From Brevibacillus sp. (GTDB lineage: Bacteria; Bacillota; Bacilli; Brevibacillales; Brevibacillaceae), in the NCBI GenBank assembly GCA_017656235.1, contig JACDOF010000004.1:62001-126000 (forward strand): a stretch of DNA of 64,000 nucleotides, in the 5' to 3' direction. A program made the position numbers and the translations under genes. Positions 46,985-53,102 of the stretch are shown here, piece after piece. Numbering within the stretch: the first letter of the stretch is position 1; every line of letters starts with the position of its first letter. The notes beneath the pieces were generated by a model. That model was not told where the DNA came from. It made no database searches and worked only from the letters and a program-made list of their open reading frames with translations.

Positions 46985-49975
46985 TTGCAAAAACCGGGAA
47001 GCGTTTTCTTGACGTGGATGGTTGTCTGCCTGCTGCTGTTTCAAGCCGCAGCACTGCCGCAGACGGCCCGTGCAGCGGAACAGGCAGCAGAGCAGCAGCT
47101 GGCAGCCAACATGGAGAAACTGCTCGCCGATCTGGAGGAGAACCCCGAAAGCCAGGGAATGATGACGGGTATCGCTGTCTACAATCTGACGACCGGGCAA
47201 TACCTGTACACGCACAACGAAGACAAAGCGTTCATTCCAGCCTCCAATCTGAAGCTGTTGGTGACGCTGGCCGCACTTGACCGACTGGGGCCCGACTATC
47301 GCTTCAAGACGGAAGTATACGCTGACGGTAACCTGACGCCAGGCGGTGTACTGGAGGGCGATCTGGTCGTAAAAGGATACGGTGACCCTTCCTTCTCACC
47401 GGAAGATTTGAGCGAACTGGTGCAAAAACTGCGTGATGTCGGCATCAAACGGATTACGGGCAGCATCCGGGTAGATGAAAGCTACTTTGATGAAATCCGG
47501 TTGGGACCGTCCTGGATGTGGGACGACGAAGTGTACGCCTACAGTGCTCAACTGAGTGCGCTAACCCTGAATAAAAACGCTGTTACGCTGACAATCAGAC
47601 CGGATCGGCAGGTGGGTGAGCCGCCTGCGATTGAGGTTGACCCTGTCAATGACTACGTGACCATACAAAACGACGTGAAAATTGTGGAGGGAACGGACAG
47701 CGACTTGAGCTTCGAGCGGCCCCGTGCCCAGAACACGATCACCGTGAAAGGGACGATCGGCAAGGAGGCGGAGCCTGTTGAGGAACCACTGGCTGTCCAC
47801 GATCCGGCGCTGTTCGTGGGCAGCGCCTTGAAGCATCAGCTTGCTGCGGCGGGAATCGGGATATTGCCGCACGCGGCTGTGCAAAAAACAGAAATAAAAA
47901 CAGGCACGCCGCTTGTTACCCACTATTCGCAGCCGCTGACCGAACTGATCAAGGAATTGAACAAGGAAAGCGACAACTTCTATGCCGAAGCGCTGCTGAA
48001 AACACTGGGGGCGGTGCAGAAACAGACAGGCAGTTTCGCTGCCGGCAGCGAGGCGGTTATGGAGGTGCTGCGTGAAGCTGGCATCACGGCTGCTTATCAG
48101 CAGGTGGACGGTTCAGGTCTCTCCCGCCTCAATCTGATCACCCCGGCGCACATGATCAAGCTGCTGGCTTACGTACAGGAGAAGACTTACCGGGAGGCGT
48201 TTGAAGCTTCGCTGCCGATTGCCGGCGTAGACGGCACACTGGAGAATCGGTTCGTGGGCACGCCAGCAGAAAACAATCTGGCGGCCAAAACGGGCAGCAT
48301 GAGCGGAGTCAACTGCCTGTCCGGTTACGTGACAGCAGGAAACGGGGACAAACTGGCGTTCTCCATCATGGCCAACGGCATCTACAAGTCGACGTACGCC
48401 AGGACGCTGCAGGAGCAGGTTGGTGTCCTTCTGGCCAGCTATCCCGATCTCCCCGATCCTGAAGGAGACCGGCAGGTCGAGCGGCAGCAGTTTGTCCTCT
48501 CCGACCAGCTTGATCCGTTGATCGACGAATGGGAGCAGTCCGGAGCGGCTGTCGGTGTGATTGTCAAGTCGCTTGATCGATCGGACGATCAGGCTCTGCT
48601 CTATGCACACAATGCGGACAAACTGTTTACGCCAGCATCCAACGCCAAACTGCTGACCAGTATAACCGCGCTGCGGCAGTTGGGCGGGGAGTACCGTTTC
48701 AAAACGGAACTGTACACGGCTGGCCCGATTACGCCGGGTGGCGTTCTCACTGGTGACTTGATCCTTAAAGGATACGGAGACCCCACGCTGCACACCGAGG
48801 ACAGTCTCAAGGTTCAGGAGGGCGTTTCCATCGAAGAGATCGTGCAAACGATTCGGGACGCGGGCATCAAGGTGATTCAGGGGAGCATCGTGGTGGACGA
48901 TCGATACTTCGACGATCAGAGACTGGGACTTGGTTGGGCGTGGGATGACGAAAGCTATTCCTACAATGCGCAAATCAGCGCCCTCTCGCTTAACCGGGGA
49001 ACCGTGCGCCTTGACTACCGTCCGGGCGAACAAGCCGGAGAGAAGATTATCGTGTCGCTGACACCACAGACCAAGTATGTCCAGGTCATCAATGAGGCTA
49101 AAACGGCTGCCGCCGGTGAGAAAAACACCTTGAAAATCGAGCGGGAACGGGGACAGAACGTGATTCGGCTGAGCGGCAATCTTCCCCTTGATGCGGCAGC
49201 GGATTACGAGCCGATCACCGTGGAAGAACCGGCACTCTACACCGGTACGGTGCTCTCGGAAAAACTGCGCGAAGCGGGGGTCAAACTGACAAATGACCAG
49301 GTGAAAGCGGGAGAAGTGCCACCGGGCAGTACAAAACTGGCGGAATTTTCTTCCCTGCCGCTGAAAGACATCGTCAATTACCTGAACAAGAACAGTGACA
49401 ATCTGTATGCGGAGATGATCGCAAAGACGCTTGGCGCGGAGAAGAAGGAGGAAGGGAGCGCATCAGCGGGGATCGGGCTGATCTACGAGACAGCCGCTGC
49501 CCTTGGCGTCAGTGAAACCTTCGACCTCTTTGACGCCTCCGGCTTGACCCGCTACAATCTGGTGGCTCCGCGGCAATTGCTCGCTGCACTGGAGGGGATG
49601 GCCAAGCAAGCTGATCAGGAGGCTTTTCGCTTCTTTTACGACTCACTGCCAATCGCCGGAGTGGACGGCACGCTGGAGAAACGCATGAAAGGCACTCCGG
49701 CGGAAAATAACGTGCGGGCCAAGACAGGAACCCTTACCGGCGTGAGCAGTCTGTCAGGGTATGTGACGACACGGGACGGCGAACGACTCGTCTTTTCCAT
49801 CATGACGAATGGCCATATGGGTGATACGGATAAACTGAAGGAGTTGGAGGACCGATTGGCTGTGGCCTTGGCGCAATACCGCGGCGACAGGAGAATGTCA
49901 ATGCTGCTGCCGGTATTCCTGGAGATCACGCGGGGGTACTCTATGGAAAGACAACTCGCAACCATCACTTCTTGA
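46985..49975 (+). CDS. Double-domain D-alanyl-D-alanine carboxypeptidase (PBP4/S13, tandem duplication)
   Basis: 996-residue exported penicillin-binding protein made of two consecutive S13 (DacB/PBP4) domains. A signal peptide (residues 1-31, ARAA) is followed by domain 1 with S87-NLK90, SDN at 329-331 and KTG at 435-437, and domain 2 with S552-NAK555, SDN at 804-806 and KTG at 913-915. All three active-site motifs are complete in both copies, so both could be active in trimming or cleaving peptidoglycan cross-links. Typical DacB has one such domain of about 470-490 residues. TTG start after GGGAGGGGAAAG. Monocistronic. Confidence 0.9.
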   Translation: MQKPGSVFLTWMVVCLLLFQAAALPQTARAAEQAAEQQLAANMEKLLADLEENPESQGMMTGIAVYNLTTGQYLYTHNEDKAFIPASNLKLLVTLAALDRLGPDYRFKTEVYADGNLTPGGVLEGDLVVKGYGDPSFSPEDLSELVQKLRDVGIKRITGSIRVDESYFDEIRLGPSWMWDDEVYAYSAQLSALTLNKNAVTLTIRPDRQVGEPPAIEVDPVNDYVTIQNDVKIVEGTDSDLSFERPRAQNTITVKGTIGKEAEPVEEPLAVHDPALFVGSALKHQLAAAGIGILPHAAVQKTEIKTGTPLVTHYSQPLTELIKELNKESDNFYAEALLKTLGAVQKQTGSFAAGSEAVMEVLREAGITAAYQQVDGSGLSRLNLITPAHMIKLLAYVQEKTYREAFEASLPIAGVDGTLENRFVGTPAENNLAAKTGSMSGVNCLSGYVTAGNGDKLAFSIMANGIYKSTYARTLQEQVGVLLASYPDLPDPEGDRQVERQQFVLSDQLDPLIDEWEQSGAAVGVIVKSLDRSDDQALLYAHNADKLFTPASNAKLLTSITALRQLGGEYRFKTELYTAGPITPGGVLTGDLILKGYGDPTLHTEDSLKVQEGVSIEEIVQTIRDAGIKVIQGSIVVDDRYFDDQRLGLGWAWDDESYSYNAQISALSLNRGTVRLDYRPGEQAGEKIIVSLTPQTKYVQVINEAKTAAAGEKNTLKIERERGQNVIRLSGNLPLDAAADYEPITVEEPALYTGTVLSEKLREAGVKLTNDQVKAGEVPPGSTKLAEFSSLPLKDIVNYLNKNSDNLYAEMIAKTLGAEKKEEGSASAGIGLIYETAAALGVSETFDLFDASGLTRYNLVAPRQLLAALEGMAKQADQEAFRFFYDSLPIAGVDGTLEKRMKGTPAENNVRAKTGTLTGVSSLSGYVTTRDGERLVFSIMTNGHMGDTDKLKELEDRLAVALAQYRGDRRMSMLLPVFLEITRGYSMERQLATITS

Positions 49976-50130: not shown

Positions 50131-50517
50131 TTACTGGCAGAAGTTGCTCTTTTGCCGTAACAGATGTTGAAGCTGTACGATGTAGATGTCCAGCTTCTGA
50201 CTTAATGCGACAACGGCATCGTCGGCAAAGCCTCTCTCTGCGACCATTTCCCGCAGCTGCAGGGATAACTCGTCGATGATTTTTCTCAGCTTCTTCTCAG
50301 CGGCGGTGACATCTGAGAGGGTTCCTAAGTGGGCTGCTGTCGGAGCCCGGTAGCTGGCGGGCTTTTTCTTCAGATAGAGAAATCGGAAATTTTTCCTGGT
50401 ATTTTGGTACATGTCCGTATTCATGTCGAACGAAGGAGTTTCTTCATACTTTATCACTTCTTCTGCTCCGTCGAAACGGTTGGTATTACAGGAGTGGTTG
50501 TGCATATGACAGATCAT
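50131..50517 (-). CDS. Spo0E-like aspartyl-phosphate phosphatase family protein
   Basis: 128-residue protein whose C-terminal 55 residues match the Spo0E family helical hairpin (IDELSLQLREMVAERGFADD and LSQKLD at 105-110, the conserved S-x-x-LD motif). Members dephosphorylate Spo0A-P and delay sporulation. The N-terminal 65 residues are an unusual extension; most relatives are 50-85 residues. ATG 50517 follows AAGGAAGGAG closely; ATG 50505 is the alternative and would give MHNHSCNTNR. It lies downstream of the peptide-signalling locus on the same strand, separated from it by a terminator. Confidence 0.7.
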   Translation of the reverse strand: MICHMHNHSCNTNRFDGAEEVIKYEETPSFDMNTDMYQNTRKNFRFLYLKKKPASYRAPTAAHLGTLSDVTAAEKKLRKIIDELSLQLREMVAERGFADDAVVALSQKLDIYIVQLQHLLRQKSNFCQ

Positions 50518-50624
50518 CTCCTTCCTTGCTACTACTTAACTTTACGGGATGTCTCAACCTTTATAAAGAAAAATAAAATTAGAAACCATTTGCAAGATTC
50601 GACTTTTGTCGACAGGTGAAAAAG
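50518..50624. other. AT-rich region upstream of the Spo0E-like gene, with 0A-box-like sequence
   Basis: Contains TTGTCGAC at 50606-50613 and, on the other strand, AGTCGAA at 50598-50604. Both resemble the Spo0A box (TTGTCGAA), arranged as an overlapping palindrome. No strong promoter could be fixed. Confidence 0.35.
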
Positions 50625-50651
50625 CAAAAAAAAGAGCGCTGTTTAGCGCTC
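50625..50651 (-). terminator. Terminator of the regulator/peptide operon
   Basis: On the minus strand GAGCGCT-AAAC-AGCGCTC followed by TTTTTTTT. It ends the transcript just after the peptide gene. Confidence 0.9.
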
Positions 50652-50678: not shown

Positions 50679-50813
50679 TCAATGCCCTGGGTCGTCTAAG
50701 AATAAAATAATTTCAGGTTTTTGATGTAGCCAGTTTTGCTGTTCACTAGACTGGGGAGGAAAAAGAAGAATCGTGACCAAAAGCAGCATTATGGCCGTCC
50801 ATTTGCTTCTCAT
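50679..50813 (-). CDS. Candidate secreted signalling propeptide (44 aa, Phr/NprX/AimP-like)
   Basis: Short minus-strand frame overlapping the 3' end of the RRNPP-type regulator by 68 bases in another frame. It encodes a basic start (MRSKW), a hydrophobic stretch (TAIMLLLVTILLF) and a polar tail (QKPEIILFLDDPGH), the plan of exported propeptides whose C terminus is the mature signal. AAAGGAGTG lies 11 nt before the ATG. A -10 box (TATAAT, 50868-50863) within an inverted repeat lies upstream, and a strong terminator follows the stop. The tail KPEII resembles KPDIV of NprX, which may be chance. Expression is unproven. Confidence 0.7.
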   Translation of the reverse strand: MRSKWTAIMLLLVTILLFPPQSSEQQNWLHQKPEIILFLDDPGH

Positions 50814-52134
50814 TAGAGTTTTTCACTCCTTTATAAAAATGTTTAAAAATGTTGTTAAGTCTATTATACACGTTAACAAGTTTTTCTAACAGTTCAAAAC
50901 TAATCGTCCTTCTTGACGTTACATGAAAGGACAGTATGTCACTTATACATTGAGTAATTTCCTTATACGCATTTACTTTCTCGTAGGCGGAGATACTGTT
51001 GAAGTAGGTTTCAATCGCTTCTTCAAACTGGCCGCACTTAATCAGGTACACTCCTTTTAGTCGGTAGTACCTGCCTATTTCATAATGTTTATATGGAGTC
51101 TTGGGATCAAAGGAAAGAATTTTCTCCTCGGCTTTTATGATCTGTTGAACCATTTTGATGTCATTGATGTGCAGTAATGCATCGATGAGATCATTTACTC
51201 GATGGATTCGTGTATCGTCTGTGGCTTCCTCCAAACATACCTTGAGGAGTGGGATGGCTGCGTCGTAGTTTCCTTTTTTTACGAGAATATTCGCTCTAAT
51301 TGGCTTTGCCCGTTCCACGACAAATGAATAGTTCGCCTTTACAAACATATCCACGTAAGTTTCTGCAGACTCATAATCACCTAACATGATATAAGAATTA
51401 CAGAGAGCTAGTGCCGCTCGTTCCTTTAGTTGGTTCGAGGTATGGTCTTCTTTTAGACCAGCCTGGCACAATTCAATACACTTTGCGTACTTTTTAATGT
51501 TGTGGGCGTGAAGCCCTAAGCGGAAGAAGAGAGTGATTCGCTCCTCTTGAGACAAAAAGTCGGTATAATGCAGAATCTCTTCCCCGGCCTGAAATGTTTC
51601 TTCCAGTCGTTTCATGTCAAGCCTTTCAATCAGGTATTTTTGCAGCAAAGCCTTGGCCAAAAAGCGCTGGATGCCGTGTTCCCGCGCGTATTTCACAATG
51701 AAGCTGTACAAGGCCAATTGCATCTCAACGTCCTGGACGGTACGGGTGAGGTTGTACAACCGCTCCAGCAGGGTACAGCTGTCCGCGTGGGGGGACTGCA
51801 CGAAGCGGTCCGCTACCTTCTGGACCAGCCGTACGTCTGCCAATTCAATCGCTTCCATGAGCAGTTCGTGCAGCACGTCAATGCGCTGATCGATTTCGAC
51901 GTAATGTTCAATGATTTCAGTCGAAGGAATGCCTAACGTTTGGGCGATTGGTCTGATCGTTTTCAATTCGGGGCGTTTTGTTTCGCCTGTTTCGATCTTT
52001 GAGATGACCCCTTTTCTGATGCCGGTTGCCTTTTCCAGATCAGACAGGGTGAGATTGGCTTGTTTCCGACGCTGCTGAATTCGTTCACCCAGCGTGGTGA
52101 ACAACAGCTTTTGTCCCTTCGTGTCCATCTCCAC
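50746..52134 (-). CDS. RRNPP-type peptide-responsive regulator (HTH plus TPR)
   Basis: 462-residue cytoplasmic protein. An XRE-type helix-turn-helix (residues about 15-75: LGERIQQRRKQANLTLSDLE, IRKGVISKIETGE) is followed by a helical array of TPR-like repeats to the C terminus (for example AALALCNSYIMLGDYESAET and YYRLKGVYLIKCGQFEEAIE). This is the plan of RRNPP regulators (PlcR, NprR, PrgX, AimR), which bind an imported peptide in the TPR groove. The GTG start has AGAGGGG 7 nt upstream; ATG 52128 is the alternative. The last codons overlap the putative propeptide gene. The gene is AT-richer toward its 3' end, hinting at separate origin. Confidence 0.82.
   Translation of the reverse strand: MEMDTKGQKLLFTTLGERIQQRRKQANLTLSDLEKATGIRKGVISKIETGETKRPELKTIRPIAQTLGIPSTEIIEHYVEIDQRIDVLHELLMEAIELADVRLVQKVADRFVQSPHADSCTLLERLYNLTRTVQDVEMQLALYSFIVKYAREHGIQRFLAKALLQKYLIERLDMKRLEETFQAGEEILHYTDFLSQEERITLFFRLGLHAHNIKKYAKCIELCQAGLKEDHTSNQLKERAALALCNSYIMLGDYESAETYVDMFVKANYSFVVERAKPIRANILVKKGNYDAAIPLLKVCLEEATDDTRIHRVNDLIDALLHINDIKMVQQIIKAEEKILSFDPKTPYKHYEIGRYYRLKGVYLIKCGQFEEAIETYFNSISAYEKVNAYKEITQCISDILSFHVTSRRTISFELLEKLVNVYNRLNNIFKHFYKGVKNSNEKQMDGHNAAFGHDSSFSSPV
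50852..50879. promoter_or_regulatory. Operator-like inverted repeat spanning a -10 box upstream of the peptide gene
   Basis: TTGTTAA (50852-50858) and TTAACAA (50873-50879) are perfect inverted arms separated by 14 bases. The spacer contains, on the minus strand, TATAAT (50868-50863). The -35 region is poor, as expected for an activator- or repressor-controlled promoter. A natural binding site for the regulator encoded by the same DNA. Confidence 0.5.
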
Positions 52135-52221
52135 GAGTCAGCCCCTCTTCTTCAATAATTTCCCATTTTTTCCTATCCTCAGTTTATCATAGAAAATGTT
52201 CGTTGTGAACAGGCCTGTCCG

Positions 52222-53001
52222 TTACTTCAGCAGGATGTATTCCCTTAGTGCCCCCAGTTCCGCGATTTTTTGGTGTATCTGTCGTACGTAGTACTCGTGG
52301 TCTGAGTCGACCGCGGCAGCCTGATCTATCGTTTTGAGGATGTGCTGGTAGTTGCTCATCCCCAGCGCAAACATCTTTTCGACGTACATGCGGTCTTGGG
52401 GAGTCAGACGTTTGTCCCGATAGGTCTTGAGGATCTCCACGGCAATGTTCCCCACTTCCTCCAACGAGTTGAGATAGAGGTATTCCGTGGCCGTGTCTTC
52501 CCCGCCGTGTTCGGTAATAAACCATAGGGGGTTTTTCTTCTCGAAGCTGCCCATCCGTTCGTAGGTAAGAAGCATATCCTGAAGAAGCTGCCGCTTTTTC
52601 TTTTCATCGCTGACCTTCCTGGCCAGATGGCGATAACTTTCCTTCAGGTGAGGCAGCATGGTCATGTAGATATCCATCAACTCATCGTGATTGATGAGGT
52701 TGAGATTATGCGCCTGATCAGTCAGGATCAGCTTATCCAGTTGGACGGCAATCTGTTCATAGGCATTAACCGCTTCTTCGTACTTTTCAAACTTGTACCA
52801 GCGTTCACCTTCGTGAAACAACTGGAGAATTCGCTCCTCCCGCAGCCGTTTCTCTTCCGAGATGCGCAGTTTTTCTGCCCGCTCTTCCGCATTTTTGGTG
52901 ACGATCTGCCCGGACAGATACCCTGTCGCAAGCCCTACGGCAATACTTGTCCCCAGATTGACGAGAAAACGAACCCAGCCGTTTTCGGTTGGCCTTGGCA
53001 T
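52222..53001 (-). CDS. Hypothetical membrane-anchored helical protein upstream of the RRNPP regulator
   Basis: 259-residue protein with one N-terminal membrane segment (FLVNLGTSIAVGLATGYLSGQIV, split here as residues about 10-32), a charged coiled coil (NAEERAEKLRISEEKRLREE), and a mainly helical domain with a TPR-like stretch (WYKFEKYEEAVNAYEQIA). I do not recognise the family. GGAGGTGG precedes ATG 53001; the reading from 53055 would cross that site. It is transcribed toward the regulator with an 87-nt gap, so the two could share a transcript. Confidence 0.75.
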   Translation of the reverse strand: MPRPTENGWVRFLVNLGTSIAVGLATGYLSGQIVTKNAEERAEKLRISEEKRLREERILQLFHEGERWYKFEKYEEAVNAYEQIAVQLDKLILTDQAHNLNLINHDELMDIYMTMLPHLKESYRHLARKVSDEKKKRQLLQDMLLTYERMGSFEKKNPLWFITEHGGEDTATEYLYLNSLEEVGNIAVEILKTYRDKRLTPQDRMYVEKMFALGMSNYQHILKTIDQAAAVDSDHEYYVRQIHQKIAELGALREYILLK

Positions 53002-53102
53002 CTCTCCACCTCCGCAATCGTACCTTCTCATGACGTCTTGTTCACTTCCATACATATGTCACAGCGGACAAACTATATCCTCCATCGCACATCTGTCTTG
53101 AA

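Follow-up and report, generated by a model that had tools for sequence, protein, structure and literature searches.

In the AimR-AimP (arbitrium) system the receptor gene is followed by the gene for its peptide, and NprR-NprX, PlcR-PapR, and Rap-Phr are likewise systems in which a receptor with tetratricopeptide repeats (TPRs) responds to an exported peptide signal. For Alo13 of Paenibacillus polymyxa, the receptor AloR is reported to activate spo0E and the peptide SHGRGG to shut it off, and a Spo0E-like gene is described downstream of the receptor in six Alo systems of that species, not in all Alo systems (PMC7425212). Two papers have described a further family of this kind. Bernard 2023 (PMC10075063) presents RRNPP cluster 8 as a computational prediction and mentions that a plasmid of B. 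laterosporus LMG 15441 bears one AloR and one cluster-8 system. PMC12700828, from 2025, describes subfamily 08 of the Paenibacillaceae as the sister of AloR, with an HTH plus nine TPRs, and with a DPG motif in its peptides that is common to the peptides of AimR. The number, the taxon, and the citation lead us to equate cluster 8 with subfamily 08; as this family is described in the parts of these sources available to us, it occurs on chromosomes, plasmids, and phages. No experimentally tested member of either was recognised in our literature search, in the parts of the sources that it covered.

The locus described here lies in a 64,000-nt stretch of Brevibacillus sp. DNA (the window). On the minus strand it carries a receptor ORF with an HTH and an array of nine helix-pair, TPR-type repeats (50746-52134; GTG start, 462 aa), a propeptide gene of 44 codons with an ATG start (50679-50813; translation MRSKWTAIMLLLVTILLFPPQSSEQQNWLHQKPEIILFLDDPGH), which runs in a different frame across the last 68 nt of the receptor ORF, and a Spo0E-like gene of 128 aa with the LSQKLD motif (50131-50517; PF09388, 32 bits against a cut-off of 23), the probable target of the pair. 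An earlier note on this DNA had described a 462-residue HTH and TPR regulator, a 44-codon frame overlapping it, a ribosome site, and a terminator, and all of these are confirmed in the sequence. As in Alo13, receptor, small propeptide, and Spo0E-like gene stand in a row, but AloP13 ends in SHGRGG and the window peptide in DPGH. What has been described of cluster 8 and subfamily 08, in the parts seen of those sources, is closer: a receptor with an HTH and nine repeats, a short propeptide downstream, and a widespread DPG motif. The window copy differs from these in the 68-nt overlap between propeptide gene and receptor and in the resident Spo0E-like gene alongside. We take the locus to be a self-contained RRNPP pair of subfamily 08 with a DPGH signal and the Spo0E-like gene as its most likely target, a reading to which we assign a probability of about 0.72.

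AloR was the first reading of the receptor because of the gene order and the Spo0E-like neighbour, which is an Alo feature present at this locus. AloR identity was rejected: against the AloR13 orthologue at locus L156, which stood for AloR13 in place of the ATCC 842 protein itself, the window receptor shows only 23% identity over 107 residues of the HTH region and thus falls short of the known-cluster rule of PMC10075063, which asks for no less than 30% identity with a mutual coverage of 80%. Aligned profile to profile with hhalign, the window family and AloR match distantly along their full length, with a probability of 97.8% and 17% identity in 396 columns, and by these comparisons the window receptor is a cousin of AloR, not AloR. 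Genuine Alo13 loci look different at the peptide end: a degenerate pattern for VSSHGRGG followed by a stop matched three of 392 Paenibacillales genomes, all three times at the end of an AloP13-like peptide, with at least one match for the reversed control pattern among those listed; L156 itself has a receptor, a peptide ending SHGRGG, and a Spo0E-like gene. A 23-residue fragment of the Alo13 propeptide found no match in 104 genomes of the family of P. tyrfis, an empty answer that is uninformative.

Plasmid pBRLA33 of B. laterosporus LMG 15441 encodes two receptors. One of them, RS22620, whose peptide ends HGVGG, shows 45% identity to the AloR13 orthologue; the other, BRLA_RS22615, shows 44.7% identity to the window receptor over 421 residues. 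Since RS22620 is the AloR-like one, RS22615 is assigned to cluster 8 by elimination, and by the same elimination the window pair, whose peptide ends LDDPGH and thus contains the DPG motif of subfamily 08, appears to fit this already predicted family. The earlier note had named no close match for the pair; this was wrong, because the family appears already to have been predicted in print, as cluster 8 in PMC10075063 and subfamily 08 in PMC12700828. The locus is real and had been read correctly in kind, but its family was already anticipated.

In the receptor, Pfam identifies an N-terminal HTH_3 domain (E 2.4e-12) followed by TPR_2 and TPR_1 matches, both above the Pfam cut-offs; Rap, according to PMC12700828, has lost the HTH. 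An AlphaFold2 model built with 68 family sequences has a pLDDT of 91.5 and consists of the HTH part and then 18 helices, by our own count nine pairs, the architecture described for subfamily 08. Compared by VIA-align, the model matches NprR-NprX (4gpk; Z 19.0, rmsd 7.4 over 292 residues), several Rap-peptide complexes (Z up to 17.6, for Rap 4gyo), AimR (5xyb; Z 16.7, rmsd 12.4), and PlcR (2qfc; Z 15.3), but unrelated TPR proteins match it equally well (TSK, Z 19.2; LGN, Z 18.7). Because TSK and LGN score like NprR, the fold is consistent with an RRNPP receptor but is no proof of kinship. A sequence search of the PDB returned HTH and other DNA-binding proteins together with engineered or consensus TPR proteins, and no chain of AimR, NprR, PlcR, or Rap was among the matches listed at E 0.01. 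The window receptor has the helical repeat fold in common with AimR, and PMC12700828 ascribes the DPG motif to AimR peptides; the window locus, however, is chromosomal and sits among seemingly housekeeping genes (ORFs read by eye). A promoter-like site recognised by consensus only, TTCACA-17-TAAACT, precedes the receptor (52181-52209, minus strand), and TTTACA and TAGAAT-like boxes stand before the receptor in many relatives. TTTACA was also considered as an operator before receptors and was rejected, as it resembles a promoter -35 box.

The propeptide has a basic N-terminus, a hydrophobic core, and a polar C-terminus ending FLDDPGH, the make-up of an RRNPP(A) propeptide; this signal-like character, here and in the relatives, was judged by our own hydropathy and charge rules. 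FLDDPGH is also the likely mature signal (codons 50682-50702, minus strand), a boundary that we place by the C-terminal conservation in 99 peptides. The ribosome site AAAGGAG (50826-50832, minus strand) stands 12 nt ahead of the ATG, a little farther than usual, and 27 nt past the stop lies an intrinsic terminator, GAGCGCTAAACAGCGCTC followed by T8 (50634-50651, minus strand). A terminator scan of the region is by itself little proof, since it returned six terminator-like sites against 4.3 in shuffles; GCGTTC-type terminator stems are found at the same place in relatives.

Relatives of the receptor were found at E 1e-20 in 28 of 59 genomes, the window's own genome counted, with up to 18 matches per genome if fragments are counted. 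All 28 belong to the same family, and none of the 24 genomes from other families of the class had a match at that threshold; in a wider draw, 27 of 398 genomes of the class had relatives at E 1e-30, again all in the same family. Relatives also occur in Paenibacillus tyrfis and on plasmids of P. larvae and P. thiaminolyticus. The 100 regions that we fetched, together with the window, L001, and L016, contain 106 receptor ORFs, partial and broken ones included. When start position, length, ribosome site, basic start, hydrophobic core, and tail all have to satisfy fixed rules, a qualifying short frame lies at the 3' end of 89 of these 106 receptors, but of only four of 279 control ORFs from the same loci (mechanical ATG-started ORFs of at least 150 codons, some of them not real genes). 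Two of the four control passes end HGVGG like AloP, one of them (L065) following the AloR-type receptor RS22620; a third, the EPDW peptide, belongs to a broken member of the family, and the last is seemingly unrelated. Of the 99 pairs recognised under looser rules, 90 have the start of the small gene in a zone that reaches from 4 nt ahead of the receptor stop to 60 nt past it.

The ends of these 99 downstream peptides are strikingly uniform: 90 finish in [DNE]P plus one or two residues, exactly DPGH in 22, against a mean of 3.6 and a maximum of 11 when tails are shuffled, a shuffle that keeps relatedness in. At least four of the nine peptides with other endings look like chance frames. The earlier note had proposed that homologous loci be examined for the short frame and for synonymous bias in it. 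The frame is present in most of them, as the count of 89 shows, and pN/pS, taken over 19 non-overlapping pairs of related small genes, comes to 0.36 in frame against 0.90 and 1.52 in the shifted frames; the window's own gene, which has no close orthologue in the set, lies outside these pairs. A receptor tree was made by a quick method from 103 rows, one for an AloR13 orthologue and 102 for receptors of the family. Along it the last peptide residue switches class 24 times, compared with a shuffled mean of 58.2, with near-copies adding to the clustering. Judged from these sequences, receptor and peptide evolve together. Given the recurrence of the short frame, the conserved C-termini, and the in-frame codon constraint, the small frame is not a chance one and the locus is an RRNPP receptor-pheromone pair, with export and binding as predicted properties; the same reading in the earlier note is thereby supported.

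The best clue to function is the Spo0E-like gene, which is absent from the earlier note. It lies directly downstream of the pair, with the terminator standing between. A Spo0E-motif ORF is found downstream of 16 of the 106 receptors and none is flagged for the other 90, a count by motif only, with Pfam checks for the window and two phages; by a rough estimate from the five Spo0E genes in the 3.6 Mb, chance would give such a neighbour to ~0.05% of loci, the copies not being independent. The window's own genome encodes one Spo0A, five Spo0E-like proteins, and ten SBP_bac_5 proteins, a plausible source of the binding protein for an oligopeptide permease. From its sequence, the Spo0E-like gene probably delays spore formation. 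We infer a working in which the propeptide would be exported and cut to a short C-terminal signal ending DPGH, which would be re-imported by an oligopeptide permease, bind the TPR groove of the receptor, and so alter the action of the HTH on DNA, the most likely target being the Spo0E-like phosphatase gene next door. Cell density would then set the Spo0E brake on Spo0A and hence on sporulation; with the sign borrowed from Alo13 (PMC7425212), high density would release the brake. By this analogy, density control of a sporulation brake is the likely role of the pair.

On its other side the pair is flanked by a 277-aa gene (52222-53055, minus strand), which together with the Spo0E-like gene borders a pair-less site in two congeners. 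Gene order in both congeners agrees with that of the window: hisS, hemZ, an amidase gene, the 277-aa gene, the Spo0E-like gene, a carboxypeptidase gene, and dtd, with names assigned from sequence and a Pfam check for Spo0E only. The pair is absent at this site in both: there is no room for it between the 277-aa gene and the Spo0E-like gene. Their Spo0E proteins show 60% and 49% identity to that of the window, and the Spo0E gene appears, on this comparison, to be older than the pair at this site. Within the window, 46985-49975 encode a 996-aa protein with, by eye, two seemingly tandem D-Ala-D-Ala carboxypeptidase/PBP4-type domains.

The closest receptors of the two congeners lie elsewhere, ~1.2 kb from a seeming methionyl-tRNA synthetase gene, and their mutual identity is ~77%, their identity to the window receptor only 50-52%. 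The window receptor falls, apart from them, in a 22-row clade (SH-aLRT 97) that otherwise draws on two further genera in the family, B. laterosporus belonging to one of them, and on the phages Sundance and SecTim467. Against this placement, no receptor in the set exceeds that of a congener in identity to the window receptor (51%), and the tree path lengths are alike, 1.11 to the congener receptor and 1.10 to the nearest row of its own clade. GC3 is 0.52 in the receptor and 0.42 in the propeptide gene, compared with 0.61-0.75 in six neighbour genes, and the low GC of the receptor is mostly in its 3' half (0.39 vs. 0.50 in the 5' half). Composition and receptor tree together suggest that the pair came from elsewhere, and we favour horizontal transfer, with loss from the relatives as the less likely course. 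The flanks show no trace of how an insertion took place, since no direct or inverted repeats of at least 9 nt are common to the two flanks (two stretches of ~200 nt). A 17-nt repeat of 82% identity (50706-50722 and 52154-52170), one copy of which lies inside the propeptide gene, was taken as chance. The same genome carries a second subfamily-08 pair (L035; G000:C1, 2563-3870) with a receptor 45% identical and a peptide ending VVDPGH; no Spo0E is flagged downstream of it.

The window receptor also has kin in phages, matching PHROG 32768 (function unknown) with E 5e-145. In phage Sundance (L139, 3998-5892), a receptor, a 48-aa propeptide-like frame ending NPGY, and a Spo0E-like gene are consecutive, and phage SecTim467 (L140, 3989-7332) has a subfamily-08 receptor whose overlapping propeptide frame, ending DDPGY, is unannotated, and in addition encodes a Spo0E-like protein and a receptor resembling AloR. 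PMC4909266 describes this stretch of SecTim467 as a putative transposable region common to B. laterosporus and reports an HHpred match of its receptor to PlcR-PapR.

Tandem boxes, TGTCGAC-AAA-AGTCGAA, lie upstream of the Spo0E-like gene (50598-50614, minus strand), and these TGTCGA-type boxes are largely kept in the alignment with the two congeners, most weakly in G002. We take them to resemble Spo0A (0A) boxes; from the sequence, either the receptor or Spo0A is a candidate binder. A matrix made from 12 sites picked by eye, with the 99% shuffle level as threshold, passes downstream of the propeptide gene at 10 of 16 loci with a flagged Spo0E and at eight of 70 without, and upstream of the receptor at six of 78. 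Each set began with 99 regions, of which 86 and 78, respectively, are non-redundant. The window site, left out of its own matrix, scores 15.3 bits against a 99% shuffle level of 11.0. The pattern TGTCGWAWTTTGTMRAACGTTTC with three mismatches has 22 sites in seven of 10 genomes vs. two for the reversed pattern; in 29 other genomes it is non-discriminating, with 16 sites in 13 genomes against 13 reversed (our own sums). It has no match at three mismatches in the window's own genome (G000), the window site falling below the pattern. TGTCGAA-type tandem boxes precede Spo0E-like genes at L158 and L174 with no receptor nearby, and boxes do so at L182 too, where a receptor could still lie close by because the contig ends 58 nt upstream. 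The other pattern sites inspected have unrelated genes as neighbours or coincide with the 3' end of an aminotransferase gene.

A bolder version of events is that a mobile module akin to those of the B. laterosporus phages inserted in front of the resident Spo0E gene and tied this sporulation brake to cell density, the tandem TGTCGAA element retained ahead of Spo0E-like genes in the family being the operator for subfamily-08 receptors. We offer this tentatively and hold it to be doubtful; if true, a conserved operator would have let new pairs plug into an existing regulon.

The rival that survives best accepts the pair as real but places its targets elsewhere, in itself or in trans, and makes the Spo0E-like gene a bystander under its own Spo0A-type promoter. 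The adjacency may indeed be chance, because 90 of 106 receptors have no flagged Spo0E downstream and the Spo0E gene appears to be the older one at this site; the gene and its boxes are conserved in the two congeners that have no pair there, and similar boxes stand before the receptor-less Spo0E-like genes of L158 and L174. We nevertheless consider this rival unlikely, since a Spo0E neighbour at 16 receptors and in two phages is far above the chance expectation, and Alo13 has been reported to control its neighbouring spo0E experimentally (PMC7425212). At L043, L045, and L112, which have no flagged Spo0E, genes with secreted-like starts (by eye) follow the propeptide, and such genes are possible alternative targets there.

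A subfamily-08 pair in working order could also have given way to one in decay, the receptor having run into the propeptide gene and signalling having been lost. The 68-nt overlap is unusual, overlaps of at least 20 nt being seen in six of 99 pairs, and seven of the 106 receptors have no propeptide frame even under the loose rules; yet neither window frame is broken, the small gene retains its ribosome site, signal-like core, DPGH end, and terminator, and other long-overlap pairs (L043, L054, and L066) also keep their [DN]PG ends. The receptor core is modelled with high confidence, and the overlap is created by the last 22 residues (441-462), a low-confidence tail with block-mean pLDDT of 35-53 (<50 for residues 448-462, within the overlap). 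We regard decay as very improbable. Scarcely credible is a last rival, in which the short frame arose by chance or encodes a secreted microprotein of some unrelated kind. The frame is short, overlaps a coding gene, and matches no family in Pfam, NCBIfam, or PHROGs, but the family-wide recurrence, the conserved C-terminus, and the codon constraint largely refute this rival.

Our preferred reading therefore remains a subfamily-08 receptor-pheromone pair acting most likely on the adjacent Spo0E-like gene. New here, as far as the sequence comparisons suggest, are the Spo0E neighbour, the pair-less congener sites with kept boxes, and the probable outside origin of the pair. Subfamily 08 is, in the parts of the sources covered, a computational prediction, and the locus provides a compact test case with one receptor, one peptide, and one probable target, for which the two congeners without the pair at this site are natural controls. 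The locus could reveal how control of a sporulation gene passes to a signalling pair.
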